Part shown: positions 4,895 to 50,373 of the stretch, in pieces
Numbering within the stretch: position 1 is the first letter of the stretch
Layout: each line of letters begins with the position of its first letter
Assembly (NCBI RefSeq): GCF_004349105.1
Contig: NZ_SMLB01000001.1
Location: 248,001-312,000, forward strand
Length of the DNA stretch: 64,000 bases
From: Jiangella aurantiaca
Lineage (GTDB): Bacteria; Actinomycetota; Actinomycetes; Jiangellales; Jiangellaceae
Direction: 5' to 3'
Program-made: the position numbers and the translations under genes
The notes under the pieces: generated by a model
What the model was told of the DNA's origin: nothing
The model's database searches: none
The model's input: only the letters and a program-made list of their open reading frames with translations

Positions 4895-5034
4895 GGGCGA
4901 GGCGTCGCCGGTCCTCCACGGCGTCCACGTGGTGAGATTTCGCCACGATCTGGGGCACGTCACCACGTCTTCTGGAGCCTCACCACGCCTGCAATCGTGG
5001 TGAGGGTGCAGACATCCTGGTGATGTAGGCGATC
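4895..5034. repeat. 140-bp dispersed repeat, copy 1
   Basis: This stretch matches 45186-45325 over its full 140 bases with 8 differences by hand alignment and no gaps. It is rich in the words CACCACG and CGTGGTG and contains a small hairpin, CACCACG-(8 nt)-CGTGGTG. It lies between the LuxR-type gene (5' side) and the 3' end of the giant subtilase gene. Confidence 0.85.
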
Positions 5035-34298: not shown

Positions 34299-34302
34299 GG
34301 GA

Positions 34303-35238
34303 TCACCGCCGGAACTTCGGGTCGAGGGCCTCGCGCAGCGACTCGCCCACCAGGGTGAAGCCGAGCGCGGCGAGGACGATGGCCAGGCCGGGGTAGATGG
34401 CCAGCATCGGCGCCGACGTCAGCGTCTCCTGCGCGTCGGTGAGCATGCGGCCCCACTCCGGCGCGGACGGGTCGCTGCCGGACAGGCCGAGGAACGCCAG
34501 CCCCGCCGCCTCGACGATGGCCAGCGCCAGCGTCAGCGTGCCCTGGACGATGACGGGGGTGAACGAGTTCGGCAGCACGTGCCGGAACACGATCGCCGAG
34601 CGCGAGATGCCCAGCGACCGCGCCGCCAGCACGTAGTCGGCGCCGCGCTGCCCGAGCATCTCGCCGCGCAGCAGCCGGGCGAAGATCGGCACGTTCACCA
34701 CGGCGATCGCGATCATCACCGAGGTGAGGCTCTGGCCGAGCATGGCGGCGACGGCGATGGCGAACAGCAGGCCGGGCACCGACAGCATGATGTCGACGAA
34801 CCGCATGACGAGGGTGTCGACCCAGCCGCCGAACGCCCCGGCCAGGACGCCGAGCGCGATGCCGGCGACGGCGCCCAGCGCCAGCGAGACGACGCCGATG
34901 AGCAGCGACTGCCGGGCCCCGTAGATGATCCGCGAGAACACGTCGCGGCCGAGCGGGTCGATGCCCAGCCAGTGCTCGGCCGACGGGCCGGGGTACTGAC
35001 CCGGGCGGACCTGGTCCAGCCACGAGTTGTCCGTGGGGGAGTACGGCGCGATCAGCGGCGCGAAGATCGCGACCAGCACGAAGACGGCGATGAGCACCAT
35101 GCCGACGACCGCCATCGGGTTGCGCACCAGCCGGCGCAGCGCCTCGCGGCCCAGGCTGGAGGGCGGCCGCGCGGCCGCCTCCGTCGTGGCTGGGGCCGGT
35201 CCGCCCGGCTCGCCGGCGACCACCTCGTTGACGCTCAT
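34303..35238 (-). CDS. Peptide ABC transporter permease (DppC/OppC-like)
   Basis: A 311-residue inner-membrane permease. It has the N-terminal OppC segment (PMAVVGMVLIAVFVLVAIFA), six membrane helices and the cytoplasmic coupling loop (DYVLAARSLGISRSAIVFRH). ATG at 35238 overlaps the stop of the DppB-like gene (ATGA). It pairs with the DppB-like protein to form the channel. Confidence 0.95.
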   Translation of the reverse strand: MSVNEVVAGEPGGPAPATTEAAARPPSSLGREALRRLVRNPMAVVGMVLIAVFVLVAIFAPLIAPYSPTDNSWLDQVRPGQYPGPSAEHWLGIDPLGRDVFSRIIYGARQSLLIGVVSLALGAVAGIALGVLAGAFGGWVDTLVMRFVDIMLSVPGLLFAIAVAAMLGQSLTSVMIAIAVVNVPIFARLLRGEMLGQRGADYVLAARSLGISRSAIVFRHVLPNSFTPVIVQGTLTLALAIVEAAGLAFLGLSGSDPSAPEWGRMLTDAQETLTSAPMLAIYPGLAIVLAALGFTLVGESLREALDPKFRR

Positions 35239-36239
35239 GAGACCCTCACCCGCGGATCGAGCAGCCCGTAGACCAGATCGACGATCATGTTGATGACGAC
35301 GTAGACGACGGCGATGACCAGGATGAACCCCTGAATGGTCGGAAAGTCGCGCTGCACGATCGCGTCGGCCATGAACTTGCCGACGCCGGCGAACGCGAAC
35401 ACGGTCTCGGTGAGCACCGCGCCGGCCAGCAGGACGCCGAGCTGCAGGCCGATGACCGTCGTGACCGGCAGCATCGCGTTCTTCAGCACGTGCCTGCGGG
35501 TGATGGTGCCCGGCAGCAGGCCCTTGGCCTCGGCGGTGCGCACGTAGTCCTCGTTGATGACGTTGAGGACCGACGCCCGGGTGATGCGGACGATCACCGC
35601 GAGCGGGATCGACGACAGCGCCAGCGCCGGCAGGATCAGATGCTGGATGGCGTCCCAGCTGGCGTCCAGGTTGCCGGTGACGATGCCGTCGAGGACGTAG
35701 AACCCGGTGGGATGCTCCGTCCGGGCTCTCGCGTCGGCCCGGCCGGCCGTGGGCAGCCAGCCGAGCTCGACCGAGAAGACGTACTTGAGCAGGTAGGCGA
35801 GGAAGAAGATCGGGATCGTCACGCCGAGCAGCGAGCCCGTGACCGCGACGCTGTCGATCCAGGTGCCGTAGCGCCGGGCCGCCACGTACCCGAGCGGTAT
35901 CCCGACGCTGACAGCGATCAGCAACGCCGCGACGGCCAGCTCGATGGTGGCGGGGAACCGGCGCAGCATCTCGTCGATGACCGGCTGCCCGGTCTGCAGC
36001 GAAGCGCCGAAGTCGAGCCGGACGGCCCGCCCCAGGAACTGGAGGTACTGCTCCCAGAGCGGGCGGTCCAGGCCCAGCTGCGATTCGATCGCCGCGACGG
36101 CCTCCGGCGTGGCCCGTTCCCCCAGCAGCGCTTGTGCCGGGCCGCCGGGCAGGGCACGAACCCACGCGAACAACAGGACCGACAGACCCAGCAGGATCGG
36201 GACGAGCAGGAGAAGGCGCCGGACGATGAATCTCAGCAC
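35235..36239 (-). CDS. Peptide ABC transporter permease (DppB/OppB-like)
   Basis: A 334-residue permease with the classic N terminus (VLRFIVRRLLLLVPILLGLS), LGLDRPLWEQYLQFL and the coupling loop DYVRTAEAKGLLPGTITRRH. GTG at 36239 was chosen because the conserved first helix starts there and GAGGG lies upstream, 7 bp after the binding-protein stop. A periplasmic-side insertion (about residues 160-185, ADARARTEHPTGFYVLDGI) is usual for peptide permeases. Confidence 0.95.
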   Translation of the reverse strand: MLRFIVRRLLLLVPILLGLSVLLFAWVRALPGGPAQALLGERATPEAVAAIESQLGLDRPLWEQYLQFLGRAVRLDFGASLQTGQPVIDEMLRRFPATIELAVAALLIAVSVGIPLGYVAARRYGTWIDSVAVTGSLLGVTIPIFFLAYLLKYVFSVELGWLPTAGRADARARTEHPTGFYVLDGIVTGNLDASWDAIQHLILPALALSSIPLAVIVRITRASVLNVINEDYVRTAEAKGLLPGTITRRHVLKNAMLPVTTVIGLQLGVLLAGAVLTETVFAFAGVGKFMADAIVQRDFPTIQGFILVIAVVYVVINMIVDLVYGLLDPRVRVS

Positions 36240-36246
36240 GTGTCGA

Positions 36247-37923
36247 TCAGCCCTCGATGTCGACCAGCTTGAAGTACTCCAGGCTGACCGGCGACGGCGT
36301 GTAGCCCGTGATGTCACCGGCGAGCGCGAGCAGCGGCTGGTTGTGGACGAACGGAACGCCGGGGATGTAGTCGTAGATCAGCTGGTTGACCTCCTGGTAC
36401 ACCTCCTCGCGCTGGGCCTGGTCGGTCATCGTCAGCGCCTCGTTCAGCTTGCTCTGGATGGTCGGGTCGGTGAAGCCGAACTCCGGCCGGTCCTGGCGGA
36501 AGAACGTCCCGATGAAGTTGTCCGGGTCGGCGTAGTCGCCGGTCCAGCCCAGCAGGTGCAGCTGGCCGAGGCCGTCGCCCTGGATGTTCTGCAAGTAGTC
36601 CGGCGTCCACGGCACCGTCTTCGGGACGATGGTGAAGCCGACGGCCTGCAGGTCGGCGGCGAACGACTCGTACACGGCCTGCGGGTCCGGCATGTACGGC
36701 CGGGACACGTCGGACGGGTACCAGAACTCCAGCGTCAGGTTGGTCTCGCCGGACTCCTCGATCAGCTGGCGGGCGAGGTCGGGGTCGTACTCGTAGCCCT
36801 CGATGTCGTCGTTGTAGCCCCACTGCTCCGGCGGGAGGAACTCGTTGGCGACGACGGCGCCCTCCGGGTACGCGGCGTCGAGCAGTCCCTGCCGGTTCAG
36901 CGCGTGCGCGATGGCTTGGCGGATCTTCGGGTTCTGGAAGATCGGCAGCTTGTTGTTGAAGCCGACGTAGCCGACGTTGAACGCCGGGCGCTCGACCACC
37001 TGGTCGCCGGCGCTCTCGATGGCGCCGATGTCGGCGGCGTTGACGCCCTCGTAGGCGTCGATCTCACCGGCCTGCAGCGCCTGGAGGCGGGCGGTCGGGT
37101 CGGCGATCGGGCGGAAGATGATCTCGTCCAGCGCGGGCGCCTCGCCCCAGTAGTCCTCGTTGCGCTCCAGGACGAGACTCTCGCCGCGGTCCCAGCTGAC
37201 GAACGTGAACGGGCCGGTGCCGGCCACCACCTCGGAGCCGAAGCCGCCGCTGTAGGTGAACGAGTCGCCGCTGGCCTCGATCTCGGTGCCGCCCTCCTCG
37301 ATGGCCTTCGGACTGGCGATGGAGAACGCCGGCAGCACGAGGCCCGCCAGCAGCGCCGACGACGGCTCGGTGAGGGTCAGCGTGGCGGTGAGCTCGTCGG
37401 TCGCCTCGCAGGACTGGTACCGGCTCGTGTCGGGCGCGGAGTCGACCTCCTTGGTGGCGAAGCCGCCGAAGATCGTCTGCCAGTAGTAGGTGACGTCGCC
37501 ACTCTGCGCGGGGCCGGTGAAGTTGTACCAGCGGTCGAAGTTGAAGCAGACCGCCTCGGCGTTGAACGGCTCGCCGTCGTGGAAGGTCACGCCCTCGCGC
37601 AGGTGGAACGTGTAGGTGAGGCCGTCGGGGCTGATCTCCCACTCCTCGGCCAGGCCGGGGACGACCTCGGTGGTGCCGGGCTCCAGCGCGACCAGGGTCT
37701 CGTAGATCTGGAAGATCACTCGGAACGACTCGCCGTCGGAAACGTAGGCGGCGTCGAGGGTCTTCGGGTCCTCGGACGCGCCGAAGATGAAGGTCTTCGG
37801 GTCGCCGCCGTCGTCGCTGCCGGTGTCACCCGAGCCGGAGTCGTCGCCACCACAGGCTGCGGCCAGCAGCCCTACGGCGGCGGTGAGGGCGAGGAGTCGC
37901 CCTGCCTTGCGGTGCACACGCAT
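36247..37923 (-). CDS. Peptide ABC transporter substrate-binding lipoprotein (DppA/OppA-like, SBP_bac_5)
   Basis: A 558-residue lipoprotein with lipobox LLAAACGGD, an acidic Gly/Asp linker and the family-5 solute-binding fold (TYTFHLREGVTFHDGEPFNA). It starts the eight-gene operon of transporter and D-hydroxyproline dehydrogenase (minus strand, to 29352), with ATG at 37923 behind AAGGAGG. Because every following gene overlaps or nearly touches the next, the likely ligand is hydroxyproline or small hydroxyproline-containing peptides, possibly arabinosylated ones. A copy of the regulon dyad lies 158 bp upstream. Confidence 0.92.
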   Translation of the reverse strand: MRVHRKAGRLLALTAAVGLLAAACGGDDSGSGDTGSDDGGDPKTFIFGASEDPKTLDAAYVSDGESFRVIFQIYETLVALEPGTTEVVPGLAEEWEISPDGLTYTFHLREGVTFHDGEPFNAEAVCFNFDRWYNFTGPAQSGDVTYYWQTIFGGFATKEVDSAPDTSRYQSCEATDELTATLTLTEPSSALLAGLVLPAFSIASPKAIEEGGTEIEASGDSFTYSGGFGSEVVAGTGPFTFVSWDRGESLVLERNEDYWGEAPALDEIIFRPIADPTARLQALQAGEIDAYEGVNAADIGAIESAGDQVVERPAFNVGYVGFNNKLPIFQNPKIRQAIAHALNRQGLLDAAYPEGAVVANEFLPPEQWGYNDDIEGYEYDPDLARQLIEESGETNLTLEFWYPSDVSRPYMPDPQAVYESFAADLQAVGFTIVPKTVPWTPDYLQNIQGDGLGQLHLLGWTGDYADPDNFIGTFFRQDRPEFGFTDPTIQSKLNEALTMTDQAQREEVYQEVNQLIYDYIPGVPFVHNQPLLALAGDITGYTPSPVSLEYFKLVDIEG

Positions 37924-38081
37924 TGGTCCTCCTTGGTTCGACATGCGACAAAGCCGAGGGGGCGGCCGGCTCGCTGATCTGGCGTCGGGACGCTCACTGC
38001 GCCTGTGGCACCCTGGACGGCACGACCGGCGCAGGCGTCTCCAGGCACCACAGAGCACAGATCTACCATCAGAGCGGGCAC

Positions 38082-38311: not shown

Positions 38312-40402
38312 GTGTCTCCGACATCGTCGCGACGCATCAGGGTGCGGGCGCTGCTGATCGCCGTGGCCGCGTCCGCGCTGCTCTTCCCGCAGCTCGCCGG
38401 CGCCGAGGACGCTCGCCCGTCCGGCGCCCCGCCGCTCGTCCCGATCGACCCGCAGGACTGGGACAACCAGTACGACCTCACCTGGGACGACTTCATCCCG
38501 GTGCCGGGCGTGGATTGGACCGACCCCAACCGCGAGCCGAGCGTCGACACCTGGCGAGCGGCGCTCGTCATGGTCGACTACCCGAACATGACGTTCCAGA
38601 TCAGTCAGCCGGAGGGCTCGACCATCTTCGGCACCCCGATCGGAGTCGGTGACGTCCCGCGCGAGGACGTCCCGGAGTTCTACCGCGACCTGCTCAACAC
38701 GCCGGGTGAGCTCAACCACGGGCAGACGCTGAACTCGTACTGGATGGAGGACTCCTACGGCCAGTACGGCGTCGAGGTCGACTCCTTCGGGCCGTTCCGG
38801 ATGCCGCGCAACCACTTCGAGTACGGCAACTCGCCGTTCGGCAACGCCGCCAGCTGCCCGCCGGGCTACACCTGCAACGGCAACTACACCCGCGACGCGA
38901 GGGCGCTCTACGAGGCCAACGTGCCGGCGGAGGTGCGCGCCCAGTACGACCTGATCTTCTTCATGGGCGCCGGCCTCGACGAGTCGACCGCCTGGCAGGT
39001 GTTCGGCGAGATGATGTTCGACTCGCCGGAGGACGTGCCCGATGAGTTCGGCCCGCCGGCCGAGTTCGATCCCGACGGCGTGATGACGAACTGGATGCCG
39101 ACGCGCTACATCCCGTGGACGTCGTGGGCGGCCGGCTCGTTCACCTGGGCCAGCGCCGGCAACGGCACGGGCAACATGGCGGAGTCGTCCGGCACCGCCG
39201 GGTTCGCGCACGAGTTCAGTCACATCCTCGGCATCGGCGACAACTACAACGGCGCCTTCGCCGTGCCGGCGCAGCGCACGTTCACGGGCCAGTGGGACAT
39301 GATGAGCCAGGGCTCGTGGAACGGGCCGACGGGCATGCACACCCGCTGGAAGGTCCCGGCCGACGGCGGCTCGATGGTCGGGCCGCACCACAGCATCCGC
39401 AACAAGCTCGAGCTCGGCCTCATCGACACCGACGACATCGTCGACCTCAGCCGCACCGGGCTGGAGTCGTCCGGCGTCGTCGTCGCCAAGGTGCGTGCGC
39501 GGGCGGCCGGTCCGCTCGAGGACGAGCTGCTCGGCGTGCGGATCCGGCTCGACGGCGCCGCCCCGGTTGACCGCACACCGCCGTGTCACCCGTCGACGCA
39601 CGGCCCCGAGTGCATGGGTCAGAGCGACTACACCCATTACACGCTCGAGGTGGTGCAGCAGCTCGGCGTCGACTCCTACACACCGGGCAACGGCGTGCTG
39701 ATCTACAAGAACAAGGACCGTGCCAGCAACTGCGGCACGGCCACCTGCTTCTCATGGCTGATCGACCCCAACCCCGCGGACATCGGGATGGTCGACTTCT
39801 ACCAGCCCGACGGCACCCCGCGGATGGTCGTCACGGGCGATCCGCGGCAGGTCAACGACGCCACGTTCAACGCCGGCACGAACTCGGGCACGGACTTCGA
39901 GTGGGTCGACGCGCACAACCGGTTGCACTTCTACATCGTCGACGTCGAGAACGACGACGACGGCGTGCGCACGTACACCGTCGCCGTCCGCTCGCTCGAC
40001 GGCGCCGGGCCGCAGGAGCGCGGCGTCGACCTGGCTGCGGGGGAGCCCGGTCGGCATACCCCGGGCAAGGCGGCCACCTGCGCCTTCCCGCTCTCGAACA
40101 CGGGGGCCGCGGCGCCGCTCGACGCCTCCGCGCACCCGAGCGACGTCACCGACGAGGTGGCGGCAGATGTCTACCGGCTGTCGGTGAGTTCTTCGGGCGC
40201 CGGCTGGGACGCCGAGCTGTACAACGAGCTGGCCGCGAGCCGGTTCGGCGACACCGTCGAGGTGCCGGTGTACGTCACCCGCACGCCGGGTGCCGCCCGG
40301 GAGACCACGGTCACGCTGACCGCGACCTCGGAGAGCGACCCGTCCGCGACGGCGACGGCCACCTGCGTGGTCGACGTTGCGGCGACCACGGTGCGCCCCT
40401 GA
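38312..40402 (+). CDS. Secreted M6-like metalloprotease 1
   Basis: A 696-residue exported protease of the immune-inhibitor-A-like M6 group. A signal peptide covers about residues 1-31 (ALLIAVAASALLFPQLAGAE) and is followed by the shared opening DPQDWDNQYDLTWDD. The Zn site is HEFSH (His300, Glu301, His304) with GIGDNYN downstream, and a C-terminal beta-sandwich ends in TVTLTATSESDPSATA. A cysteine pair lies in SCPPGYTCNGN. The GTG start at 38312 follows GAGGAGG; longer readings lack a site. Two paralogues lie at 40492 and 45488. It is transcribed divergently from the peptide transporter operon, which suggests a supply-and-uptake relation. Substrate unknown. Confidence 0.88.
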   Translation: MSPTSSRRIRVRALLIAVAASALLFPQLAGAEDARPSGAPPLVPIDPQDWDNQYDLTWDDFIPVPGVDWTDPNREPSVDTWRAALVMVDYPNMTFQISQPEGSTIFGTPIGVGDVPREDVPEFYRDLLNTPGELNHGQTLNSYWMEDSYGQYGVEVDSFGPFRMPRNHFEYGNSPFGNAASCPPGYTCNGNYTRDARALYEANVPAEVRAQYDLIFFMGAGLDESTAWQVFGEMMFDSPEDVPDEFGPPAEFDPDGVMTNWMPTRYIPWTSWAAGSFTWASAGNGTGNMAESSGTAGFAHEFSHILGIGDNYNGAFAVPAQRTFTGQWDMMSQGSWNGPTGMHTRWKVPADGGSMVGPHHSIRNKLELGLIDTDDIVDLSRTGLESSGVVVAKVRARAAGPLEDELLGVRIRLDGAAPVDRTPPCHPSTHGPECMGQSDYTHYTLEVVQQLGVDSYTPGNGVLIYKNKDRASNCGTATCFSWLIDPNPADIGMVDFYQPDGTPRMVVTGDPRQVNDATFNAGTNSGTDFEWVDAHNRLHFYIVDVENDDDGVRTYTVAVRSLDGAGPQERGVDLAAGEPGRHTPGKAATCAFPLSNTGAAAPLDASAHPSDVTDEVAADVYRLSVSSSGAGWDAELYNELAASRFGDTVEVPVYVTRTPGAARETTVTLTATSESDPSATATATCVVDVAATTVRP

Positions 40403-40442
40403 CTCGCGCGCCGGTCACATTCCCGGCTGCCCGGGGGCGTGA

Positions 40443-40463
40443 CGAGAAATGTGCAATGTCGTA
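40443..40463. promoter_or_regulatory. Weak match to the regulon dyad before metalloprotease 2
   Basis: The core AATGTGCAATGTC aligns with the 29336 site at 14 of 21 positions, 28 bp before the ATG at 40492. AT-rich sequence follows (TATTTTAT). Confidence 0.35.
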
Positions 40464-40491
40464 TTTTATCCAGAATATGTGAGGAGAGCGC

Positions 40492-42657
40492 ATGCGCATG
40501 AGGCTCAAGCGGACGAGCGTCGCGAGGCGGTGGCGGCTGGGACTCGCCGCGGCCGCGGTCACGACGCTCGTCGTCGGCATGGCGGGCGCCGGTCAGGCGG
40601 CGCCGCCTGACTTCGAGGTCCAGCCGATCGACCCGCAGAACTGGAAGAACCAGTACGACATGACCTGGGACGACTGGACCGACATCCCGGGGACCGACTG
40701 GAACGACCCGACGGCCGAGCCGAGTGAGCGCGGGCTGCGCATCGCGCTGGTGGCGGTGGACTTCCCGGACCAGCCGTTCGTCATGACGCAGGAGAAGCAG
40801 ACCGACCTGTTCGGCAACCCGCAGATCGACCCGATCAGCCGGGACGAGGTGCCGCAGTTCTACCACGACTTCTACATGGTCCCGAACGAGTACAACCACG
40901 GCCGCACGATCCAGGAGTACTGGATGGAGCAGAGCCGCGGGAAGCTCGGCGTCGAGGAGATGGACGTCTTCGGCGCGTACCAGGTGCCGCGGAACCTGTT
41001 CGAGTACGGCCTGAACGAGTGGGGCCAGGCCTCCGCCTGTCCCAAGGGCTTCACCTGCAACGGAAACCTCGACCGTGACGTGGACACGGTGTGGAAGGCC
41101 GACCTGGCCGCGAAGGGCATCCCGTGCCCGGACAGCCGGTGCGGCTACGACGTCATCCTGCGGGTCTACGCCGGTTACGACGAGACCAGCATCTGGCAGG
41201 AGTACGGCGAGATGATGTTCAACACGAAGGAGGACATCCCTGAGGAGTGGGGTCCGCCGGCCTCGGTCGACCCCGACAACGAGATGCCGAACTGGGCGCC
41301 GACGCGGTACGTCGAGTGGACGTCGTGGCGGGCCGCGGCCCAGCAGTGGGGCCTCTCGTCGATCCGGCAGGCGGAGAGCTCGGGCACCATCACGCATGAG
41401 ATGGGGCACTTCTTCTTCAGCATCGGCGACAACAACAACAACCCGTTCACCAACCGGCAGAACCCGCCGCAGCCGTTCCACCGGGTCGGCTCTGCACCCT
41501 GGGACATGATGGACCGCGGCTCGTTCAACGGCCCCGGTGGTCACCACATGCGCTGGGTCGTGCCGCCGAACATGGGTGGCTGGTCGCCCTCGGGCCTGAT
41601 GGTCCGGAACAAGATCCACGCGGGCATCCTGCCGGCCGAGAACGTGCTCGACGTCAGCCGTGAGGCGCTGGCCGACACCGGAGTCGTCGTCGACGAGGTG
41701 ACGGCGCGCGCCGTCGACCCCGGCCCTGAGGGCACGTCGGGCATCAAGATCCGGCTCGACGGCCCGGGCGCCGTCCCGGACCGCACCTCGTTCTGCGACG
41801 CCAACGCCGATCCGTTCTGCCACACCGACCCGGTCGACGTCGATCCCCGTCCGGAGGTGGAGAACCTGCAGACCGGGTGGGACAACTACACGCTGGAGGT
41901 CGTGGACCGGATGGGGTTCGACTCGTTCAACCCCGACACCGGCGTCATCATCGCCAAGAACAAGACCAACGAGCGCCCCGCCCGCGACACCTGCGGCTAC
42001 GGCTGCTTCAACTGGGTCATCGACGCCAACCCGCAGGACATCGGGCTGGTCGACTTCTACAAGCCGGACGGCACGCCGGTCATGGCCACGATCGCCGACC
42101 ACCGGCAGCTCAACGACGCCGCGTTCCACGCCGGAACCAACTCCGGCTCGGAGTACGAGTACGTCGACGAGCACAACCGGCTGCACTTCTACGTCATCGA
42201 CCTGGAGCGCGACGAGGACGGCGCGCTGTCGTACACCCTGGCCGTCCGGTCGCTCGACGGGTCCGGCGACCAGGAGCGCGGCGTCGAGCTGGGCGAGGCC
42301 GAGGTCACCGGCCTGCGCATCAGCCAGGCCGCGCAGTGCACGTTCCCGCTGACCAACACCGGCGAGGACGCCACGAATGCGGCCGGCCACGTCAGCGACG
42401 TCAGCGACAAGGTGAAGAACGACGTCTACCGGCTCTCGGCCGACGCCAGCGGCCAGGGCTGGACCGCCGAGCTGGACAACGCGCTCACCACGGCCCGTGC
42501 CGGGGAGACCGTCGAGATCCCGGTGTACGTCACGCGCGAGCCCACCGCGGCGCGGGACACCACCGTCACGCTCACCGCGACGTCGGAGAGCGACCCGGCG
42601 GCCACCCAGTCCGTCACCTGTACGGTCGCGGTCAAGGACACCAACCCGCGCCGTTGA
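40492..42657 (+). CDS. Secreted M6-like metalloprotease 2
   Basis: A 721-residue paralogue of the preceding protease. The signal peptide ends near GAGQAAPP, then DPQNWKNQYDMTWDDW. The Zn motif is HEMGH (His302, Glu303, His306) followed by SIGDNNNNPF, so the second position differs from the HEFSH of its two paralogues but the ligands are kept. The conserved cysteine motif is ACPKGFTCNGN, and the C-terminal beta domain ends in TATSESDPAATQSVT. ATG at 40492 follows GAGGAG. It is followed at short distance by two lipoprotein genes that probably belong to the same transcript. Confidence 0.88.
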   Translation: MRMRLKRTSVARRWRLGLAAAAVTTLVVGMAGAGQAAPPDFEVQPIDPQNWKNQYDMTWDDWTDIPGTDWNDPTAEPSERGLRIALVAVDFPDQPFVMTQEKQTDLFGNPQIDPISRDEVPQFYHDFYMVPNEYNHGRTIQEYWMEQSRGKLGVEEMDVFGAYQVPRNLFEYGLNEWGQASACPKGFTCNGNLDRDVDTVWKADLAAKGIPCPDSRCGYDVILRVYAGYDETSIWQEYGEMMFNTKEDIPEEWGPPASVDPDNEMPNWAPTRYVEWTSWRAAAQQWGLSSIRQAESSGTITHEMGHFFFSIGDNNNNPFTNRQNPPQPFHRVGSAPWDMMDRGSFNGPGGHHMRWVVPPNMGGWSPSGLMVRNKIHAGILPAENVLDVSREALADTGVVVDEVTARAVDPGPEGTSGIKIRLDGPGAVPDRTSFCDANADPFCHTDPVDVDPRPEVENLQTGWDNYTLEVVDRMGFDSFNPDTGVIIAKNKTNERPARDTCGYGCFNWVIDANPQDIGLVDFYKPDGTPVMATIADHRQLNDAAFHAGTNSGSEYEYVDEHNRLHFYVIDLERDEDGALSYTLAVRSLDGSGDQERGVELGEAEVTGLRISQAAQCTFPLTNTGEDATNAAGHVSDVSDKVKNDVYRLSADASGQGWTAELDNALTTARAGETVEIPVYVTREPTAARDTTVTLTATSESDPAATQSVTCTVAVKDTNPRR

Positions 42658-42679
42658 TCCCGGGAAGGGGACATATCCC

Positions 42680-43138
42680 TTGCAAGCAGTGCGTGGCCGC
42701 ACGGCGCTTGCCGTCGCCGCCGTGATCCCGGTCCTGCTGGCCGGATGCGGCGGGTCGTCCGACGACTCGTCCTCCGGCGGTTCGGAGGAGTCCGGCGTCG
42801 TGCGGGTGCTCATCCCGGACGGCAACCTGCGCCGGCTCGGCGAGCCGTGCAACGGGGCGGGCGCGTTCCGCTCCATCCACGCCGAGGCCGCCTTCACCAT
42901 CGAGGACGGCGACGGCGTCGAGGTGGCGCGCGGCGAGCTGCCGAACGGTACCGCGGAGAAGATGATGGACGTCAGCTTCCGCGAGGGCATGCGGCAGCCG
43001 ACGATGTGCGTCATGGAGGTCGAGGTCGAGGGGCTGACCTCGGTCGACGGCCAGAGGTTCGTGGTGGGCGACGGCTTCGCGGTGCCCATCGAGCCGAGCG
43101 AGGACGCCGGACTGATCGGAGAGGTGTTGATCTCGTGA
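42680..43138 (+). CDS. Small lipoprotein of unknown function
   Basis: A 152-residue lipoprotein. Signal VAAVIPVLLAGCGG places the lipidated Cys at residue 23; a Ser/Asp/Gly linker and a compact beta-rich domain with a Cys pair (GEPCNGAG and QPTMCVME) follow. TTG at 42680 was chosen because AAGGGG lies 9 nt upstream; GTG at 42689 is the alternative. It lies 22 bp after protease 2 and overlaps the next gene (GTGA), so it may serve the protease at the cell surface, for example as a chaperone or inhibitor. That role is an inference only. Confidence 0.7.
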   Translation: MQAVRGRTALAVAAVIPVLLAGCGGSSDDSSSGGSEESGVVRVLIPDGNLRRLGEPCNGAGAFRSIHAEAAFTIEDGDGVEVARGELPNGTAEKMMDVSFREGMRQPTMCVMEVEVEGLTSVDGQRFVVGDGFAVPIEPSEDAGLIGEVLIS

Positions 43139-43701
43139 GGCGGGTTCTCACTGGTGTGGTGGCCGCGGCGGTGACGATGGGGCTCGTCGCCGGATGCTCG
43201 GGCTCGGACGACCCGGCAACGGTGTCGTTCGACCTGCCCGGCGACGTCCCCAGCGACGTCACGTTCGTCGACGCGCCTCCGGACGCGCCGCCGGCGCCAC
43301 CGTTCGAGCTCGGCCTGCTCGACGGCAGCACCCTGGACGTCGCCGAACACTGGGAGCAGCGGCCGGTCGTGCTGGTGTTCTTCGAGTCGTTCTGCGAGCT
43401 GTGCGCGCAACAGCAGGCCGAGATCACCGAGCTGAGCGAGGAGTACCGCGACGCGATCCTGTTCGTCGGCGTCGGCAGCGCCTCCAGCGAGGACGACGCC
43501 GCCGAGTACGTGCGCGAGCACGACATCAGCTACCCGGTGGGCCTGGACGCCAGCGGCGAGGTGTTCCGGCGCTACGGCGTCGACGAGCCGCCGCTGGTGG
43601 CGTTGATCGCCCGGGGCGGGCAGCTCGTCCGTGGCTGGCCCGGCGGGGTCCAGGACCTCGGCGCCCAGCTGACGGAGTTCGTCGTCGCAGCTGCCCGATG
43701 A
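43135..43701 (+). CDS. Thioredoxin-like lipoprotein (TlpA/AhpC-TSA type)
   Basis: A 188-residue membrane-anchored thioredoxin-fold protein. The lipobox is GLVAGCSG (Cys21) and the active site is FFESFCELCAQQ with Cys87 and Cys90, followed by YPVGLDASGEVFRRYGV and the cis-Pro region EPPLVALI. It overlaps the upstream lipoprotein gene (GTGA) and shares its transcript with two secreted metalloproteases that carry conserved cysteines. A role in forming or repairing their disulfides outside the membrane is plausible. Confidence 0.85.
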   Translation: MRRVLTGVVAAAVTMGLVAGCSGSDDPATVSFDLPGDVPSDVTFVDAPPDAPPAPPFELGLLDGSTLDVAEHWEQRPVVLVFFESFCELCAQQQAEITELSEEYRDAILFVGVGSASSEDDAAEYVREHDISYPVGLDASGEVFRRYGVDEPPLVALIARGGQLVRGWPGGVQDLGAQLTEFVVAAAR

Positions 43702-43728
43702 CGGTGCCGGCTTCGTCCCGTTCATCCA

Positions 43729-43749
43729 AGTAACATGTGATATGTTACT
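43729..43749. promoter_or_regulatory. Hydroxyproline-regulon operator before the PucR gene
   Basis: Perfect 8-bp arms AGTAACAT and ATGTTACT separated by GTGAT; it matches the 29336 site at 18 of 21 positions. It lies 15 bp upstream of the PucR start codon. Confidence 0.7.
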
Positions 43750-43764
43750 GCGGCGGAGGTGACC

Positions 43765-45066
43765 ATGGAACTCTCGATGCAGCAGATCCTGGAGAGCCTG
43801 GCGCAGCGGGTGGGCCGGCCCGCCGTGCTCGAAGACCGGTTCATGCGGCTCATCGCGTTCAGCTCCCACGACCGGCCGATCGACGAGGTGCGGGAGGACT
43901 CGATCCTGCGCCGGCACGCGTCGGCGGAGGTGCGCGGCTGGCTGAAGCGGTTCGCGCTACCGAACCTGCGCCGGCCGCTGCGGCTGCCGGCCAACCCCGA
44001 GTTGCACATGCTGCCGCGGGTCTGCATCCCCGTCCTCTACCGCGGCAAGCTGCTCGGGCACCTGTGGTTCGTCGACGCCGACGGCAGCATGAGCGACGCC
44101 GACCTCGCCGCGTGCATGCAGGGCGCCGCGGAACTGGGTGAGTGGCTGCACCGCGAGAGCGTGGCCAGCCTGTTCTCGTCTGCCCGGCTGGCCGACACCA
44201 TGCACATCCTGCTGAGCAGCTCGCCGATGAGCGCCCAGGCCGCCCGCAGCCTCGTCGACGCCGGCTACATGCCGGCCCGCGACGGCGTCGTCGCCGTGGT
44301 CCTGCAGGGGGTGCCGCGCCGCTCGTCCGCCGTCGACATCGAGGACGCCCTCGCCCAGGCCGTCGCCGACTTCCGCCGCGTGGTCCGCCGCGGCCAGGCG
44401 CTCGACCTCATCAACCGCGACCACGCCGTGCTGCTGCTCTCGTGCGCCGGCGACCACGACATCTACGTCGACGAGCGGGTCGAGGCGCTGGTCGAGCTGA
44501 CCCGGTCCGCCCTGGCCGGCGGTGGCTCGGAGACGGCTCTGGTCGTCGGTGTCGGCAGCCGCCGCGACGCGCTCGAGGACGCGTACGCGTCGTTCCGCGA
44601 GGCCCGCATGTCCGCCGACGCCGCCAGGTTGCTCCCCGGCCTGGGCGACATCGTGCACTGGTCGCGGCTGGGCATCCACCAGATCGTCGTCAAGCTGGCG
44701 TCACTGGGCGAGGAGGTGCCCACGGTCCACCCCGGCCTGGGCAACCTGCTCGACGACCCCGACGCGCTGCCGCTGCTGGAGACCCTCGAGACCTACCTCG
44801 ACGTCGCCGGCAACGCCCAGCTCACCGCCGAGCGGCTCAACCTGCACCGGACGTCGCTGTACTACCGGCTGCAGCGGCTGGAGCAGCTCGCGCACACCAA
44901 CCTCAAGAGCGGCGCCGAGCGGCTGGCGCTGCATCTGTCGCTCAAGGTCGCGCGGATGACCGGCCAGTACGCCCCGCGTCAGTCCGCCGGCGTCGACCTG
45001 GCGGCGCCTGCGGGCGCCACCGGCACCGACAACGTCACTCCCTTCCCGGCGGTCGCCACGCGCTGA
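43765..45066 (+). CDS. PucR-family transcriptional activator
   Basis: A 433-residue regulator. A variable N-terminal sensory region is followed by a GGDEF-like degenerate domain (about 160-300), and the C terminus carries the PucR helix-turn-helix (LTAERLNLHRTSLYYRLQRL). ATG at 43765 is used because GGAGG lies 5 nt upstream. PucR-type proteins activate purine or proline catabolic genes in other actinobacteria. A near-perfect copy of the hydroxyproline-regulon dyad lies directly before the gene, so it probably belongs to that regulon as a second regulatory layer. Possible targets are the flanking proteases. Confidence 0.85.
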   Translation: MELSMQQILESLAQRVGRPAVLEDRFMRLIAFSSHDRPIDEVREDSILRRHASAEVRGWLKRFALPNLRRPLRLPANPELHMLPRVCIPVLYRGKLLGHLWFVDADGSMSDADLAACMQGAAELGEWLHRESVASLFSSARLADTMHILLSSSPMSAQAARSLVDAGYMPARDGVVAVVLQGVPRRSSAVDIEDALAQAVADFRRVVRRGQALDLINRDHAVLLLSCAGDHDIYVDERVEALVELTRSALAGGGSETALVVGVGSRRDALEDAYASFREARMSADAARLLPGLGDIVHWSRLGIHQIVVKLASLGEEVPTVHPGLGNLLDDPDALPLLETLETYLDVAGNAQLTAERLNLHRTSLYYRLQRLEQLAHTNLKSGAERLALHLSLKVARMTGQYAPRQSAGVDLAAPAGATGTDNVTPFPAVATR

Positions 45067-45145
45067 GCGCCGCGTTCCTTGATCAACGCGACAGTGGGGG
45101 TTGGTGTCGTTGGGGCCCCGTCACCACGATCACCTGAGCGTCGAC

Positions 45146-45325
45146 ACGATTGCAGGCGTGGTGCGACACACGATTTCGTGGTGTGGGGCGAGGCGTCGCC
45201 GGTCCTCCACAGCGTCCACGTGGTGAGATTTTGCCGCGATCTGGGGCACGTCACCACGTTTTCTGGAGCCTCACCACGCCTGCAATCGTGGTGAGGCTCC
45301 AGGGATCCTGGTGATGTAGGCGATC
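45146..45325. repeat. 140-bp dispersed repeat, copy 2, with added inverted arm
   Basis: Positions 45186-45325 match copy 1 (4895-5034) with 8 differences. Unlike copy 1, this copy has an extra upstream arm at 45146-45163 that is a perfect 18-bp inverted repeat of 45272-45289 (CACCACGCCTGCAATCGT), so the whole unit can form a long hairpin. It lies between the PucR gene and the terminator of the third metalloprotease. Confidence 0.85.
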
Positions 45326-45417
45326 CTTGATGATCATGGCTATCCACAGGCGGCAGGTGCACGCCACGGCACCTCGAGGTGTACCCAGACTCGCCCCGTC
45401 CCCTCATTTCCACAAGG

Positions 45418-45472
45418 AACCGGCCACCGGGGCCGCCGCCGCTGCGGATCGGCGGCACCCCGGTGGCCGGTT
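45418..45472. terminator. Terminator after metalloprotease 3
   Basis: AACCGGCCACCGGGG pairs perfectly with CCCCGGTGGCCGGTT, with more pairing inside (GCCG/CGGC). It begins 15 bp after the stop codon of the minus-strand protease gene. Confidence 0.85.
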
Positions 45473-45487
45473 GGGGGAGGTGGACTG

Positions 45488-47851
45488 TTAGTCCGTCGGC
45501 AGCTCCGCGGCCAACGACACCAGGGCGGCGCTGACGAGGTTGCGAGCACCGGTGCCGGCGACATCCTCGGACATCGTCATGAACCGGTCGACGGCGCGCT
45601 CGGCGGCGCGGCCGTTGGCGGCCTCGGCGATGCCCAGCTGCGCGCGCAGCCGCTGGTACTCGCCCTGGGTCAGGAAGCCGCCGGACCGGTAGTCGGCCAG
45701 CAGGTCCTGGGCGTTGTCGAAGGCGACGTCGAGCGTGCCGGACTTCAGCTCGACCTCGACGGTGAACGTGGCGCCGGGGTCGGTCTCGCTGGTGGCCGTG
45801 ATGGTCACCGTCGCCGTCTCCGACGCGTCCTCGCCGGCGCTGGCGTACGCCCAGACCGGCACGGTGTCGCCCGCCTGCGCCGCCTTGATCTCGTACGGCA
45901 GGGTCACGTCCCAGCCCTCGCCCTCGACGGTCGAGGAGATCCGGTACACGTCCGAGCCGTAGATGCCCTCGCCGGCCGCGCCGGTGTTGGTCAGCGGCAC
46001 GTTGACCAGCGCCGTCGAGTCGCCGACGGCGTACGTGGCGGCCTCGCCCAGAGCCACGTCGCGCTCGTGCGGGCCGGCCGCCTCGGTGTGCCGGACGGCG
46101 ACGTCGTAGAACAGCTCGCCCTCGGCGTCCCGGTAGGTGTCCAGGACGTAGAAGTGCAGCTTGTTCGGCGCGTCGACGTATTCGTAGTCGCTGCCCGACG
46201 CGGTGCCGGCGTGGAACGTCGCGTCGTCGAGCTGGCGCGGGTCGCCCTTGACGACGGGGACCGGCTCGCCGCCAGGCTCGGTCGCGTTGCCCGGTCGGTA
46301 GAAGTCGATCCGGCCGATGTCCTGCGGGTTCGCGTCGACGAGCCACACCTGGGGGTTGCCGGAGTTGCGGCCCTGGGCGAGCAGGACACCGTGGCCGGCG
46401 ACGAACGAGTCGTTGCCGGCCCGGTCGACCACCTCCATGGTGAACTTGGACCAGTTAGTGGCGACCGGTGTGCAGAAGAACGGGTCGTCGACGCGCGACT
46501 GGCAGGTGCCCTGGACGAACGGGCCGCCGAGCTCGACGTTGAGGCCGACCATGTCACCGTCGGGCACCGAGGAGCGCGCCTTGAGTGGCACGACGGCGAC
46601 GCCCTGCTCGGCCAGCGCGGCCCGGGTGGTGTTGACGAACTCGCCTTCCTTCACGACCCCCAGCCGGGCGTTGCCGGTGGTCTTGAAGTGCAGCGTGTGA
46701 TGCGGACCGAGTGCCGAACCGCCGGCGTTCGGGACCTGCCAGCGGTTGTGCGTGCCACCCGGCCCGTTGAACGAACCGCGGCTCATCATCTCCCAGTAGC
46801 CGGTGTAGTTTCGGCCGGAACTGGGCTGGAACGGGTTGTTGTAGTTGTCCGGAAGCCCGCGCAGGTGACTGAACTCGTGCGCGAAGACACTGAGGCCAGA
46901 GTTCTCCGCCTGGGTCGACGTCCCGTCCCGGCTGGCGTTCGGCCAGTGGTTGGCCGCCGACTGCCACGAGGTCCAGGGCACGTAGCGGGTCGGGACGGCG
47001 TTCGGGATCGGATTGCCGTCGGCGTTGAGCACCGGGCCTTCGGTCGCGCCGGGCGGGCCGAACTCGGCCGGGACGTCCGCCGGGGTGCGGAACATCATCT
47101 CGCCGAACTCCTGCCAGGTCGACGTCTCGTCGTGGCCGGCGCTGACATAGAAGCCGTTGTCGAAGCCGCAGAGCCCCGACTCGCAGCCGATGTCCGCCCG
47201 CCAGAGCGCGCCGCCGTCGGTGCGGAGGTCCTTGTTACAGGTGTCACCGGCAGGGCAGATCGAGTTGGGCCCGGTGACCGGTGCGAAGACGGAGGCGCCG
47301 TACTCGTGCAGCTTGCCGGGCAGTGTGTACGGACCGAAGACCTCGACGGTCACGCCGATGCGTCCGTGACTGGTCTCCATCCAGTACCCGTGCAGGGTCT
47401 GACCCTTGTTGAACTCGTTCGGCACCGCGTAGTAGTCGTAGTACCACTCGTTCACTTCTTCGGGCGAGACCGGCTCCCACGGGGGCAGTGGGTTCCCGAA
47501 CGGGTGCGACTCCGGCTCCTGCGTGATGAGGAACTTCTCGTCCGTGAACTCCAGCAGGATCACCGCGGTGCGGTACTGGCTCTCCGACCCCTGGCTGGTG
47601 GTGTCCTGGTTCCACGCCTCCGGCCGGACCGGCTTGTAGTCGTCCCAGGTCATCTCGGCCTGTTCTTCCCAGACCTGCTGGTCGACCGGGACGATCGGGC
47701 TGGTGCCGGCGTCATCGGCCACACCGTCCTCGGCGTTGGCCGACACGACCCCCGCCGATGCCGAGAGCGCCACCGCGGCAACGCCGACGATCGCTCTCGC
47801 CCGCCAGGTCCTCCCGCGCCTCGCGGGTCGCCGTTCTGTACTCGCCGTCAC
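45488..47851 (-). CDS. Secreted M6-like metalloprotease 3 with C-terminal FIMAH-like domain
   Basis: A 787-residue paralogue of the proteases at 38312 and 40492. Signal peptide (IVGVAAVALSASAGVVSANA), opening VDQQVWEEQAEMTWDDY, Zn motif HEFSH (His325, Glu326, His329) with GLPDNYNNPF, and cysteine motif ICPAGDTCNKD. After the shared beta domain it has an extra helical tail (LLADYRSGGFLTQGEYQRLR...AERAVDRFM) resembling the FIMAH domain seen on secreted enzymes. The GTG start at 47851 lies behind GGGAGGG. A subtilase gene lies upstream on the same strand, separated by a hairpin. Confidence 0.88.
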   Translation of the reverse strand: MTASTERRPARRGRTWRARAIVGVAAVALSASAGVVSANAEDGVADDAGTSPIVPVDQQVWEEQAEMTWDDYKPVRPEAWNQDTTSQGSESQYRTAVILLEFTDEKFLITQEPESHPFGNPLPPWEPVSPEEVNEWYYDYYAVPNEFNKGQTLHGYWMETSHGRIGVTVEVFGPYTLPGKLHEYGASVFAPVTGPNSICPAGDTCNKDLRTDGGALWRADIGCESGLCGFDNGFYVSAGHDETSTWQEFGEMMFRTPADVPAEFGPPGATEGPVLNADGNPIPNAVPTRYVPWTSWQSAANHWPNASRDGTSTQAENSGLSVFAHEFSHLRGLPDNYNNPFQPSSGRNYTGYWEMMSRGSFNGPGGTHNRWQVPNAGGSALGPHHTLHFKTTGNARLGVVKEGEFVNTTRAALAEQGVAVVPLKARSSVPDGDMVGLNVELGGPFVQGTCQSRVDDPFFCTPVATNWSKFTMEVVDRAGNDSFVAGHGVLLAQGRNSGNPQVWLVDANPQDIGRIDFYRPGNATEPGGEPVPVVKGDPRQLDDATFHAGTASGSDYEYVDAPNKLHFYVLDTYRDAEGELFYDVAVRHTEAAGPHERDVALGEAATYAVGDSTALVNVPLTNTGAAGEGIYGSDVYRISSTVEGEGWDVTLPYEIKAAQAGDTVPVWAYASAGEDASETATVTITATSETDPGATFTVEVELKSGTLDVAFDNAQDLLADYRSGGFLTQGEYQRLRAQLGIAEAANGRAAERAVDRFMTMSEDVAGTGARNLVSAALVSLAAELPTD

Positions 47852-47991: not shown

Positions 47992-50100
47992 TCATTCGCC
48001 GCGGCCGCGGTTGACGATCGTGGTCGACTGGGTTCCCTCGGTGTTGTCGTTGTGGTCGTTCGAGCGGTACTCGAGGGTGTGGTCGCCGAGGCCGATGACG
48101 CGGAACGGCTCGGTGTAGGTGCGCCAGGGGCCGCCGTCGAGCCGGTACATGATCCGATCGACGCCGGAGCCCCACCCGTCCTGGGCGGTCAGCGTCACCG
48201 TCGGGTTGACGTAGGAGCCGTCGCGGGCCGGCCGCTGGTTGAGCGCCAGCTCCGTCGTCGGCGCGTCGACCTCGATGGAGCGCAGCGCCGCCCGCAGGTC
48301 CGGCCGCGGGCCGATGTTCTCGTGCGTGTTCGTGGTCTGCGGCGTGCCGGTCGCCCGCAGCAGGTCGTTGATCTGCGCGGTCGTCCACGGGCCGAGGCCG
48401 ACGGACATGACGTAGGACTGGACGGCGACGACCGCGTTGGTGACGATCGGGCCGGCGCCGGAGGTGCCACTGAACGAGCGCGAGTACGCCCGGTTGTGGT
48501 CGTTGCCCAGTTCGGCGCAGAGCACGTTGCAGTAGCCGGTGGTGTAGATGTCCTGGCCCCAGCCCTGCAGGTCGAATCGCTGGCCGTAGTTCGAGAAGCT
48601 CAGCCGCGACCGCGCCGGGTTGGCCGCGCGCAGGCCGCTGCCGCCGGCGCCGACGAAGATCGAGCCGGAGTGCTGGACGGCCGGGTCGAACCACTTGACC
48701 CCGTTGAGGGTGTACATCGGGTCGTCGGTGTTCGTGTTGCCGTTGCCGCCGGTGAGCACGACGTTGGCGCCCATCGCCGTCAGCACCTTGTTGGCCTCGA
48801 AGACCGACGGGATCCACTCCAGTGGCGCGTACCGGCTGCCACCGAGCGGGCTGGCGGTCTGCTGCTCCAGGATCAGCGCGTCGCCGGGCCGGACGAACGG
48901 CTGCCCGTTCTCGTCCTTCAACGCGGCGACGAACGCCAGCGCCGGGCCGGGCCGCCACGACGTCCGGGTGCCGAGGTTCTCGACCGGCGAGATGCCGTAC
49001 ATCTCGACATCAGGCACGCCGCCGACCACGCCGTAGCCGTTGTCCTTCGCCACGATCTCGCCGAACACCGCGGTCCCGTGGTCGTCGCCGAAGGTGTCGA
49101 TGCGCACGAACCGGCCCTGGCCGATGTCGCTGGACCAGTCCAGCTGCAGGTCCTCGTGGAAGGGGTTCCAGTTGTACTCGAGGTCGATCACCCGGATGCC
49201 GGCGCCGCGGACCCGCGGGTCGCTGCGGACCAGCTCGGCGTCGATGCCGTTGTGGGTATCCGACGGGCGCAGGTACCCCTGCTGCGGGCTGAGGTCCGGC
49301 GTGGGCTCGGCCGGCGGCGGGGCCGGCTCCGGCGACGGGTAGGCGTAGACGACCTCCGGCAACGCGGTCAGCTCCGCCAGGACGGCGTCGACGTCGGTGC
49401 CGGCCGGCAGCAGCGCCGTGTACCAGGACGCGAGGTCGGGCAGCGGCTCGGCCGACCGGGCCTGGGCCCCGCTGGTGGCGGTGGCCAGGCCGGCCGTCTG
49501 GGCGGGCTCGACGAACGGAATGAGAGCGCTCACATCATGCCGGTCGAGGACGGCGCGGACGTCGTCCAGGCTCTCGCCCGTCGTGCTGCGCAGGGTGGCC
49601 TCGCTGCCGCCGCGGACCTGGTAGCCCTCGGCGAACTTGATCTCCAGGCTGACCTCGGGCTGGACGGGCGCGGTGCCGCCCACGCCCGCGCCATCGCCGG
49701 TGCTCGCCGTCAGCTGCAGGGCGCCGGTCGACGGCGTCAGCTCGCCCTCGGCGGCCAGCTGCTGCTTGTCGACGTGAACGACCAGGTCGTCGGCGCCGTC
49801 GCCGTCGACGTCGTTGACGTGGCTGATGACGGCGCCGGACTCAGAGCGGGCCGGTGCGACGTCGCCGACGGCGACAGTGCGCAGGTCGATGTCGGTGACG
49901 TCCACGGCCGGGGAGCCGTGCACCGTCACCGGGATCAGGCCAGGGCCGGCGAGATTGACGTGGCCGGACAGCCCGGCCGAGATGTCGACCTCGATCTCGG
50001 GCCGGTCGGCGGGCCCGGCCTGTGCGGGCGGGGCCAGCAGGGCGTAGCCAGTCACCGCGAGGGTGCCGAGTGCGACGCCCGCTCTGAAGCGTCGTGCCAT
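47992..50100 (-). CDS. Secreted subtilase (S8) with N-terminal repeat-type region
   Basis: A 702-residue exported serine protease. The signal ends near LLAPPAQAGP. A roughly 290-residue N-terminal region includes an FG-GAP-like DVDGDGADDL segment and a propeptide-like part. The S8 domain has Asp in IRVIDLEYNW, His in DDHGTAVFGE and Ser in SFSGTSGAGPIV, with oxyanion Asn in LTGGNGNTNT. A C-terminal Ig-like domain (VTLTAQDGWGSGVDRIMYRL) follows. The triad motifs differ from the giant subtilase at 5127. ATG at 50100 lies behind AAGGAG. It joins three M6-like proteases in the same 12 kb. Confidence 0.9.
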   Translation of the reverse strand: MARRFRAGVALGTLAVTGYALLAPPAQAGPADRPEIEVDISAGLSGHVNLAGPGLIPVTVHGSPAVDVTDIDLRTVAVGDVAPARSESGAVISHVNDVDGDGADDLVVHVDKQQLAAEGELTPSTGALQLTASTGDGAGVGGTAPVQPEVSLEIKFAEGYQVRGGSEATLRSTTGESLDDVRAVLDRHDVSALIPFVEPAQTAGLATATSGAQARSAEPLPDLASWYTALLPAGTDVDAVLAELTALPEVVYAYPSPEPAPPPAEPTPDLSPQQGYLRPSDTHNGIDAELVRSDPRVRGAGIRVIDLEYNWNPFHEDLQLDWSSDIGQGRFVRIDTFGDDHGTAVFGEIVAKDNGYGVVGGVPDVEMYGISPVENLGTRTSWRPGPALAFVAALKDENGQPFVRPGDALILEQQTASPLGGSRYAPLEWIPSVFEANKVLTAMGANVVLTGGNGNTNTDDPMYTLNGVKWFDPAVQHSGSIFVGAGGSGLRAANPARSRLSFSNYGQRFDLQGWGQDIYTTGYCNVLCAELGNDHNRAYSRSFSGTSGAGPIVTNAVVAVQSYVMSVGLGPWTTAQINDLLRATGTPQTTNTHENIGPRPDLRAALRSIEVDAPTTELALNQRPARDGSYVNPTVTLTAQDGWGSGVDRIMYRLDGGPWRTYTEPFRVIGLGDHTLEYRSNDHNDNTEGTQSTTIVNRGRGE

Positions 50101-50373
50101 GGGGTTCTCCTTGTCGCTGCGGGAAACGAAGGAAGGACGCAGCCATGCCTGCGGGCGTGACTGGGCGTGATGACGCCCGAACATATGGAAACCGGGATGA
50201 ATGGTCACCGGGCATGTGTCTGAAACCCGGCCCGGCCGGGCCGACATCTGTCCTAGTCGCCCGACGATGAGAGCAGTCTCACCCCTGCCTCACCCGGCCG
50301 GCCGATCGGCTCCGGAACGCTCGGACGCAGAGAGCCGGCAGCACCGGCCGGCCACTGCGAAGGGACAAGACCC

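Follow-up and report, generated by a model that had tools for sequence, protein, structure and literature searches.

A lipoprotein pair encoded beside M6-like secreted proteases in Jiangella and its possible role in their maturation

A small lipoprotein (Lip) and a thioredoxin-fold lipoprotein (Trx) are encoded next to secreted M6-like metalloproteases in Jiangella, and the arrangement extends well beyond this genome. All 32 distinct Lip-Trx pairs that were found, 13 within the family and 19 outside it, adjoin an M6-like gene. Judged from sequence comparison, there is about an even chance that Lip and Trx form a surface-anchored maturation pair dedicated to M6-like proteases, in which Trx acts on the disulfides of both the protease and Lip. 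A few small clients are known to have thiol-disulfide enzymes of their own. If the proposal is true, actinobacteria would gain a client-specific folding route for large secreted metalloproteases beside the general one, the Lip family would receive a starting function, and co-expression of Lip-Trx would be a practical lead for producing disulfide-rich metalloproteases in culture.

The window, i.e. the whole stretch of 64,000 nucleotides that was analysed, belongs to a Jiangella genome of 6.6 Mb and holds three proteases, designated A, B and C. The gene order on the + strand is A, B, Lip, Trx and a PucR-type regulator, with C and a subtilase on the opposite strand. The features are as follows.

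38312-40402, + strand: protease A, secreted M6-like metalloprotease, 696 aa (TIGR03296 119.4 bits, cut-off 110.8; Pfam M6 29.8, cut-off 22)
38855-38878, + strand: CPPGYTCN motif of A, cysteines invariant in 10 class A sequences of Jiangella
39209-39241, + strand: zinc motif of A, HEFSHILGIGD (from sequence)
40492-42657, + strand: protease B, secreted M6-like protein of a separate clade, 721 aa (TIGR03296 92.6 bits, below cut-off; model matches InhA2 zymogen, Z 14.9)
41038-41061, + strand: CPKGFTCN motif of B (from sequence)
41395-41430, + strand: zinc motif of B, HEMGHFFFSIGD, one residue longer than in A and C
42680-43138, + strand: Lip, small lipoprotein with TTG start and lipobox Cys23 (sequence; all-beta model)
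43135-43701, + strand: Trx, thioredoxin/Redoxin-fold lipoprotein, 188 aa, GTG start, lipobox Cys21 (Pfam Redoxin 52.5 bits, cut-off 26.6)
43393-43404, + strand: CELC active-site motif of Trx, Cys87 and Cys90 (from sequence)
43759-45066, + strand: PucR-type regulator, 57 bases past Trx
45488-47851, - strand: protease C, secreted M6-like metalloprotease, 787 aa, convergent (TIGR03296 122.3 bits; Pfam M6 45.2)
45509-45718, - strand: FIMAH-like C-terminal tail of C (PF22888 12.9 bits, cut-off 24.8; profile-profile 96.9%)
46847-46879, - strand: zinc motif of C, HEFSHLRGLPD (from sequence)
47234-47257, - strand: CPAGDTCN motif of C (from sequence)
47992-50247, - strand: subtilase, beside protease C

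The sequence-only reading of this DNA had described three M6-like proteases, Lip and a Trx with CELC, and each was found where it had been placed. The motifs it named are also exact, e.g. the W-D/K/E...TWDD opening, the series CPPGYTCN, CPKGFTCN and CPAGDTCN, the zinc sites HEFSH, HEMGH and HEFSH, and CELC. Protease A has a GTG start that is preceded by GAGGAGG. The gaps from A through B, Lip and Trx to the PucR-type gene measure 89, 22, -4 and 57 bases, all on the + strand, and this spacing is compatible with a single predicted transcription unit in which the start of Trx overlaps the stop of Lip by 4 bases.

The three proteases are 49% (A-B), 41% (A-C) and 41% (B-C) identical over the aligned parts, well above chance, and are the only TIGR03296 matches in the genome at E <= 0.01. 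Both A and C pass the TIGR03296 cut-off and the Pfam M6 cut-off, and are thereby of the M6 immune inhibitor A type (PF05547, TIGR03296). B scores below TIGR03296 (92.6 vs 110.8 bits), has no Pfam M6 match up to E 0.1 and carries a zinc motif one residue longer than that type. The predicted structure of B (mean pLDDT 83, pTM 0.85) has the solved InhA2 zymogen 4yu5 as its best match (Z 14.9, rmsd 4.0, 364 aligned residues, 15-16% identity in the structural alignment), and by this structural match B has an M6/InhA-like fold. On sequence it is filed as an M6-like sister clade rather than as a TIGR03296 member. The window proteases differ further from the immune inhibitor A type in their extra conserved cysteine pairs.

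The link between Lip-Trx and the proteases was followed from several directions. Within the family, Lip and Trx orthologues occur in the same 13 of 22 genomes, always adjoining an M6-like gene; two other family genomes have a protease without Lip and Trx, and the remaining seven are without all three. Weak partial Lip matches (2.6e-5 to 9e-4) were also seen at nine places elsewhere in family genomes, together with generic Trx matches. Among 71 loci drawn by two peptide patterns, a set conditioned on the protease and not exhaustive, 18 have Lip-Trx alongside (Jiangella, Phytoactinopolyspora, Promicromonospora, Allokutzneria, another Pseudonocardiaceae strain, Kibdelosporangium, Micromonospora, Compostimonas and two MAGs). 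Lip was detected in 12 of 28 protease-selected genomes, at 13 places, every one adjoining Trx and a protease; the other 16, 14 of them actinomycetotes, have no Lip match at E <= 1e-5.

Searches that start from Trx or Lip lead to the same neighbourhoods. In the phylum sample of 396 genomes, with the best eight candidates scored per genome, Trx is found at E <= 1e-20 in 16 genomes and at E <= 1e-43 in four (the Jiangella genome studied here included), and all four strong matches adjoin Lip and an M6-like gene. The 12 further genomes hold weaker Trx matches (1e-20 to 1e-26), and neither Lip nor a protease was present in the 14 stretches examined there; one of the 12 has a TIGR03296 match elsewhere in its genome. 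The protease profile, for which the best two candidates per genome were scored, is positive in six of the 396 genomes, namely the four with strong Trx and two without it. The class sample of 393 genomes contains Lip at E <= 1e-8 in 19 (13 family, 6 outside; best nine candidates scored per genome), and in each of these it adjoins Trx and an M6-like gene. The 396-genome and 393-genome samples share genomes.

The composition of the cassette is retained while its order varies (protease-Lip-Trx, protease-Trx-Lip and Lip-Trx-protease). Identities between 23 cassettes are correlated at 0.85 (protease-Lip), 0.77 (protease-Trx) and 0.93 (Lip-Trx), falling to 0.60, 0.46 and 0.75 in 15 less related cassettes, and none of 5000 permutations reached the observed values. 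Such correlations are also produced by common species history, and two unlike cassettes in Compostimonas are a better sign of co-inheritance. These two are mutually 23% (Lip), 36% (Trx) and 46% (protease) identical, and one of them is nearer to the cassette of another genome (38, 48 and 64%, respectively). The presence of Lip-Trx changes nine times on the protease tree, and the pair has therefore been gained or lost repeatedly.

The cysteines of the proteases provide the second line of evidence. The cysteine table and the protease tree comprise the 76 rows left after removal of first four partial or remote rows and then 11 near-duplicates. The proteases A, B and C contain more paired cysteines than the CPxGxTC motif alone. 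In Jiangellaceae, class A has 8 cysteines, class B 10 and class C 6, constant over 45 sequences except for one extra in two of them, and the number ranges from 4 to 12 outside Jiangellaceae. Each of the five cysteine sites holds either none or two, never one, in all 50 actinomycetote rows. The cysteine total is even in 50/50 of these rows compared with 12/26 of the others, many of which have a single cysteine at a site. The CPxGxTC pair itself appears in only two of the 26 non-actinomycetote rows, one Symbiobacterium-labelled (L093) and one acidobacterial (L096). The protease cysteines thus behave, by sequence, as if gained and lost in pairs, as structural disulfides would be, with the caveat that the 50 actinomycetote rows are related and so are not 50 independent tests. 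Closeness and co-loss suggest the likely bonding partners within each site.

All 37 rows labelled with Lip-Trx have at least two such cysteine pairs. This label was assigned by locus or species, so that it includes both L087 rows, whose own contig has no Lip-Trx although a different contig of that species does, and Jiangella A and C copies that lie in the cluster without directly adjoining Lip-Trx. Paired cysteines of the same kind are present in 13 actinomycetote rows with no Lip-Trx alongside, and within Actinomycetota the cysteine pattern does not differ with Lip-Trx presence. The wider contrast in pattern is confounded by ancestry because the cysteine-poor proteases are all in other phyla. 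A surface disulfide helper for the proteases had been suggested from the sequence alone. This suggestion gains from the linkage of the pair to proteases beyond this genome and from the paired cysteines, and it loses its strict form: given the 13 rows without Lip-Trx alongside and the 14 actinomycetote genomes without a Lip match, the pair is not required for having the cysteines.

Lip and Trx were compared in a set of 23 sequences each, with L150 left out because it duplicates the contig of L072. Besides the lipobox Cys23, Lip has two cysteines, Cys57 and Cys110, that are invariant in 23/23 sequences. Its predicted structure is all-beta, and the fold search returned weak beta-sandwich matches (Z <= 4.5). 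The window Lip matches nothing in Pfam up to E 5 except the lipid-attachment motif and nothing in NCBIfam up to E 0.1. Assignment of Lip to a named family was rejected; none of the scanned Lip proteins passes a Pfam or NCBIfam cut-off, and three others match only under the cut-offs. Trx passes the Pfam cut-offs for Redoxin and AhpC-TSA (52.1 vs 26 bits) and is below those of ResA NF002854 (44.3 vs 170 bits) and DsbE TIGR00385 (21.7 vs 123.15 bits). CxxC is present in 23/23 Trx sequences, with 14 different dipeptides in between. Among solved structures, Trx is matched by Etrx1 (4hqs, E 9e-9, the second best match) and ResA (6e-7), more weakly by mycobacterial DsbE (5e-5) and DsbF (7e-5); the Etrx2 entries are also weaker than Etrx1. 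Of 22 pairs from outside the window, 21 have overlapping Lip and Trx frames, with 4 bases the commonest overlap (10/22); starts were set by script, and the choice of start or of nearest gene makes two of the 22 lines artefacts (L074, L086). In L086 the closest protease is the A copy, which runs convergently; the B copy on the same strand has its end some 770 bases upstream. By these sequence features Lip and Trx behave as a unit, presumably a co-translated pair.

The genes, lipoboxes, tight linkage and paired cysteines are observed; from them we infer a possible course of maturation, with its bonding partners, its chemistry and redox direction, the part played by Lip and the sequence of steps. 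The protease would be exported, with the Sec route assumed. Trx, anchored on the outer face of the membrane, would catalyse formation or correction of the two to five disulfides of the protease, and would also handle the single Cys57-Cys110 pair of Lip. Lip could be an adaptor that brings the protease to Trx, or a holder of the half-folded enzyme. The linkage, the paired cysteines and the relation of Trx to mycobacterial DsbE/DsbF count for this reading; the closer similarity of Trx to the reductase Etrx1 and to ResA counts against it, as do VKOR, which gives the genome a general route to disulfides, the proteases that have the same cysteines and no Lip-Trx, the two of six protease-positive genomes without strong Trx, and the nine presence changes on the protease tree. 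The genome also encodes two DsbD/CcdA-type membrane proteins, one over and one under the cut-off, with the DsbD_TM matches on other contigs. As both VKOR and DsbD/CcdA-type proteins are present, Trx could work in either redox direction. An unlikely variant is that Lip-Trx is a redox module of two lipoproteins, not described before, that controls M6-like proteases as a gate at the surface: the enzyme, bound to Lip, would be inactive or kept at the membrane until its disulfides are set by Trx. Protease release would then be coupled to the redox state outside the membrane.

Lip may have a different task altogether. A small secreted all-beta protein encoded beside a metalloprotease is a familiar layout of protease inhibitors, and Lip, with its all-beta model, resembles it. 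In such a case Lip would be a membrane-held inhibitor or shield of the producer's surface and Trx would maintain its single disulfide, i.e. the two would serve self-protection and not maturation. The two invariant Lip cysteines besides the lipid one and the overlap with Trx agree with this. The Pfam matches of four scanned Lip sequences, however, include no inhibitor family, the fold matches are weak, producers of related proteases without Lip exist, and the thioredoxin would be left with one small client. We consider an inhibitor role doubtful.

Trx, in turn, could be a surface reductase like pneumococcal Etrx1/2 that opens substrate disulfides for the proteases or restores surface proteins after oxidation. 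Its best matches among solved structures include Etrx1 and ResA, and the locus adjoins an oligopeptide ABC transporter, as in protein scavenging. Etrx1 is a reductase, and CcdA feeds the pneumococcal Etrx proteins, which in turn reduce MsrAB2, as described in excerpts of PMC3914529; DsbD/CcdA-type proteins are encoded in the Jiangella genome as well. In an Etrx-type reducing system CcdA would be encoded alongside, but neither a CcdA nor an Msr gene is found among or directly next to the window genes A, B, Lip, Trx, PucR and C, and the genome's DsbD_TM matches come from different contigs. A reductase would also leave the constant presence of Lip and the linkage to M6-like genes unexplained. We consider this alternative improbable.

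Common regulation only, with an envelope thioredoxin and an unrelated lipoprotein in a protein-scavenging operon and no direct contact with the protease, is very improbable: operon partners often have just a pathway in common, and a peptide transporter, a subtilase and a PucR regulator are at the locus, but the M6-like genes that Lip-Trx accompanies belong to several clades, with differing gene orders and surroundings; all 32 pairs are M6-linked; Lip at E <= 1e-8 and Trx at E <= 1e-43 were not met away from proteases; and weaker Lip and Trx matches exist elsewhere, the viewed neighbourhoods, all of Trx, showing no such linkage.

Oxidoreductases dedicated to one client encoded beside them include those of sublancin operons and DsbL/DsbI. 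A thiol-disulfide enzyme is co-inherited with a specific exported client in these systems and in the proposed maturation pair alike. In contrast to them, the client of Lip-Trx would be a family of large secreted metalloproteases, and Lip-Trx always includes an unnamed second lipoprotein. The top-ranked titles and abstracts of the open-licence literature included none on a thioredoxin or lipoprotein encoded with an M6 protease; within the searched literature, the three-gene association and the Lip family appear to be undescribed, and the other component types are known. Trx shares with TlpA/ResA/DsbE-type oxidoreductases, including mycobacterial DsbE/DsbF, its Redoxin/AhpC-TSA assignment, CxxC and a position on the secreted side of the membrane. 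It differs from them in falling below the ResA and DsbE cut-offs, in its varied CxxC dipeptides and in being M6-linked. Mycobacterial DsbE and DsbF carried out oxidative folding of a test protein, according to excerpts of PMC3853704. Trx resembles pneumococcal Etrx1/Etrx2 as a surface lipoprotein with a thioredoxin fold, here predicted from sequence, whereas the Etrx partners CcdA and MsrAB2 named in the excerpts of PMC3914529 have no gene in the Lip-Trx cluster.

The proteases themselves appear to be old, separate lineages. The tree was obtained by a quick search with no mixture model, its deepest forks are weak and it carries a long-branch warning, so that the separate well-supported clades were relied on. 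A, B and C fall into three such clades. The A clade comprises four rows, with Micromonospora; label A beyond Jiangella and Micromonospora denotes the best BLAST match only and is not firmly joined to the window's A in the tree. The C clade has 14 rows, including Phytoactinopolyspora and Promicromonospora, and the B clade has 48, reaching Bacteroidota, Verrucomicrobiota, Planctomycetota and Acidobacteriota. The proposed divergence after duplication is contradicted by the phylogeny of the copies, which places them in supported clades common to other families and, for B, to other phyla; a recent duplication of A, B and C was rejected on the same tree.

The zinc motifs divide along the same line. 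HExxHxxFxxGDNN is found in 48/76 rows, 25 of them outside Actinomycetota, and HExxHxx[G/S/T]xxDN in the remaining 28. The longer motif is best taken, on sequence, as an old class feature, because its 48 rows are exactly those of the supported B clade, and a degenerate zinc site in B was rejected on this basis. Class B relatives from Bacteroidota, Verrucomicrobiota, Planctomycetota and Acidobacteriota (L095-L127) likewise have a zinc motif one residue longer than A and C. The two classes matter for annotation, as Pfam M6 fails to detect protease B of the window. TWDD in its exact form is present in 41/76 rows.

The usual Jiangella set consists of A, B, a second B copy (B') and C. Nine of the 11 other Jiangella genomes contain all four, a tenth contains B and C, and the eleventh contains none. 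The window genome is without B', which in the same number of other Jiangella genomes (9/11) sits between B and Lip (42657-42680 in the window). Loss of B' by recombination into B was considered, and no segment of B is clearly nearer to B'.

The C-terminal tail of C had been read as a FIMAH-like gain after duplication. The tail is below the PF22888 cut-off, and FIMAH is not among the matches in the Pfam scan. Profile comparison with seven over-cut-off FIMAH domains of the same genome gave 96.9% probability (E 2e-10), so the FIMAH-like character holds by profile comparison and is weak against Pfam. A recent gain does not hold: 12 of the 14 class C rows carry the tail, those of Promicromonospora and Isoptericola among them, and it is by sequence a feature of the class.

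Several observations concern the surroundings of the cluster. Genes for an oligopeptide/dipeptide ABC transporter (binding protein, two permeases and two ATPases) lie upstream at 32155-38058, divergent from the protease cluster. With the transporter adjoining the proteases, the gene content of the locus looks like one for extracellular protein digestion with peptide uptake. In Micromonospora craterilacus (L086), a binding protein 70% identical to that of the window transporter likewise adjoins a protease cluster. The PucR-type regulator is a candidate regulator of the proteases; it lies close to class C proteases in other Jiangellaceae as well, and is kept near a class C protease in two Phytoactinopolyspora-group genomes (L058, L059) without Lip and Trx. 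The subtilase has a C-terminal OmpL47-type domain, and relatives about 52% identical to it are encoded near class B proteases in Nonomuraea (L118, L119, L122). Lastly, the 16-base sequence CTGGAGCCTCACCACG forms an inverted repeat around a short loop at 45263-45302, with both arms exact, and recurs at 4972-5011 with one arm exact and two mismatches in the other. Five matches at <=3 mismatches were counted in the window against 1.5 expected, and CTGGAGCCTCACCACG looks like a dispersed palindrome.
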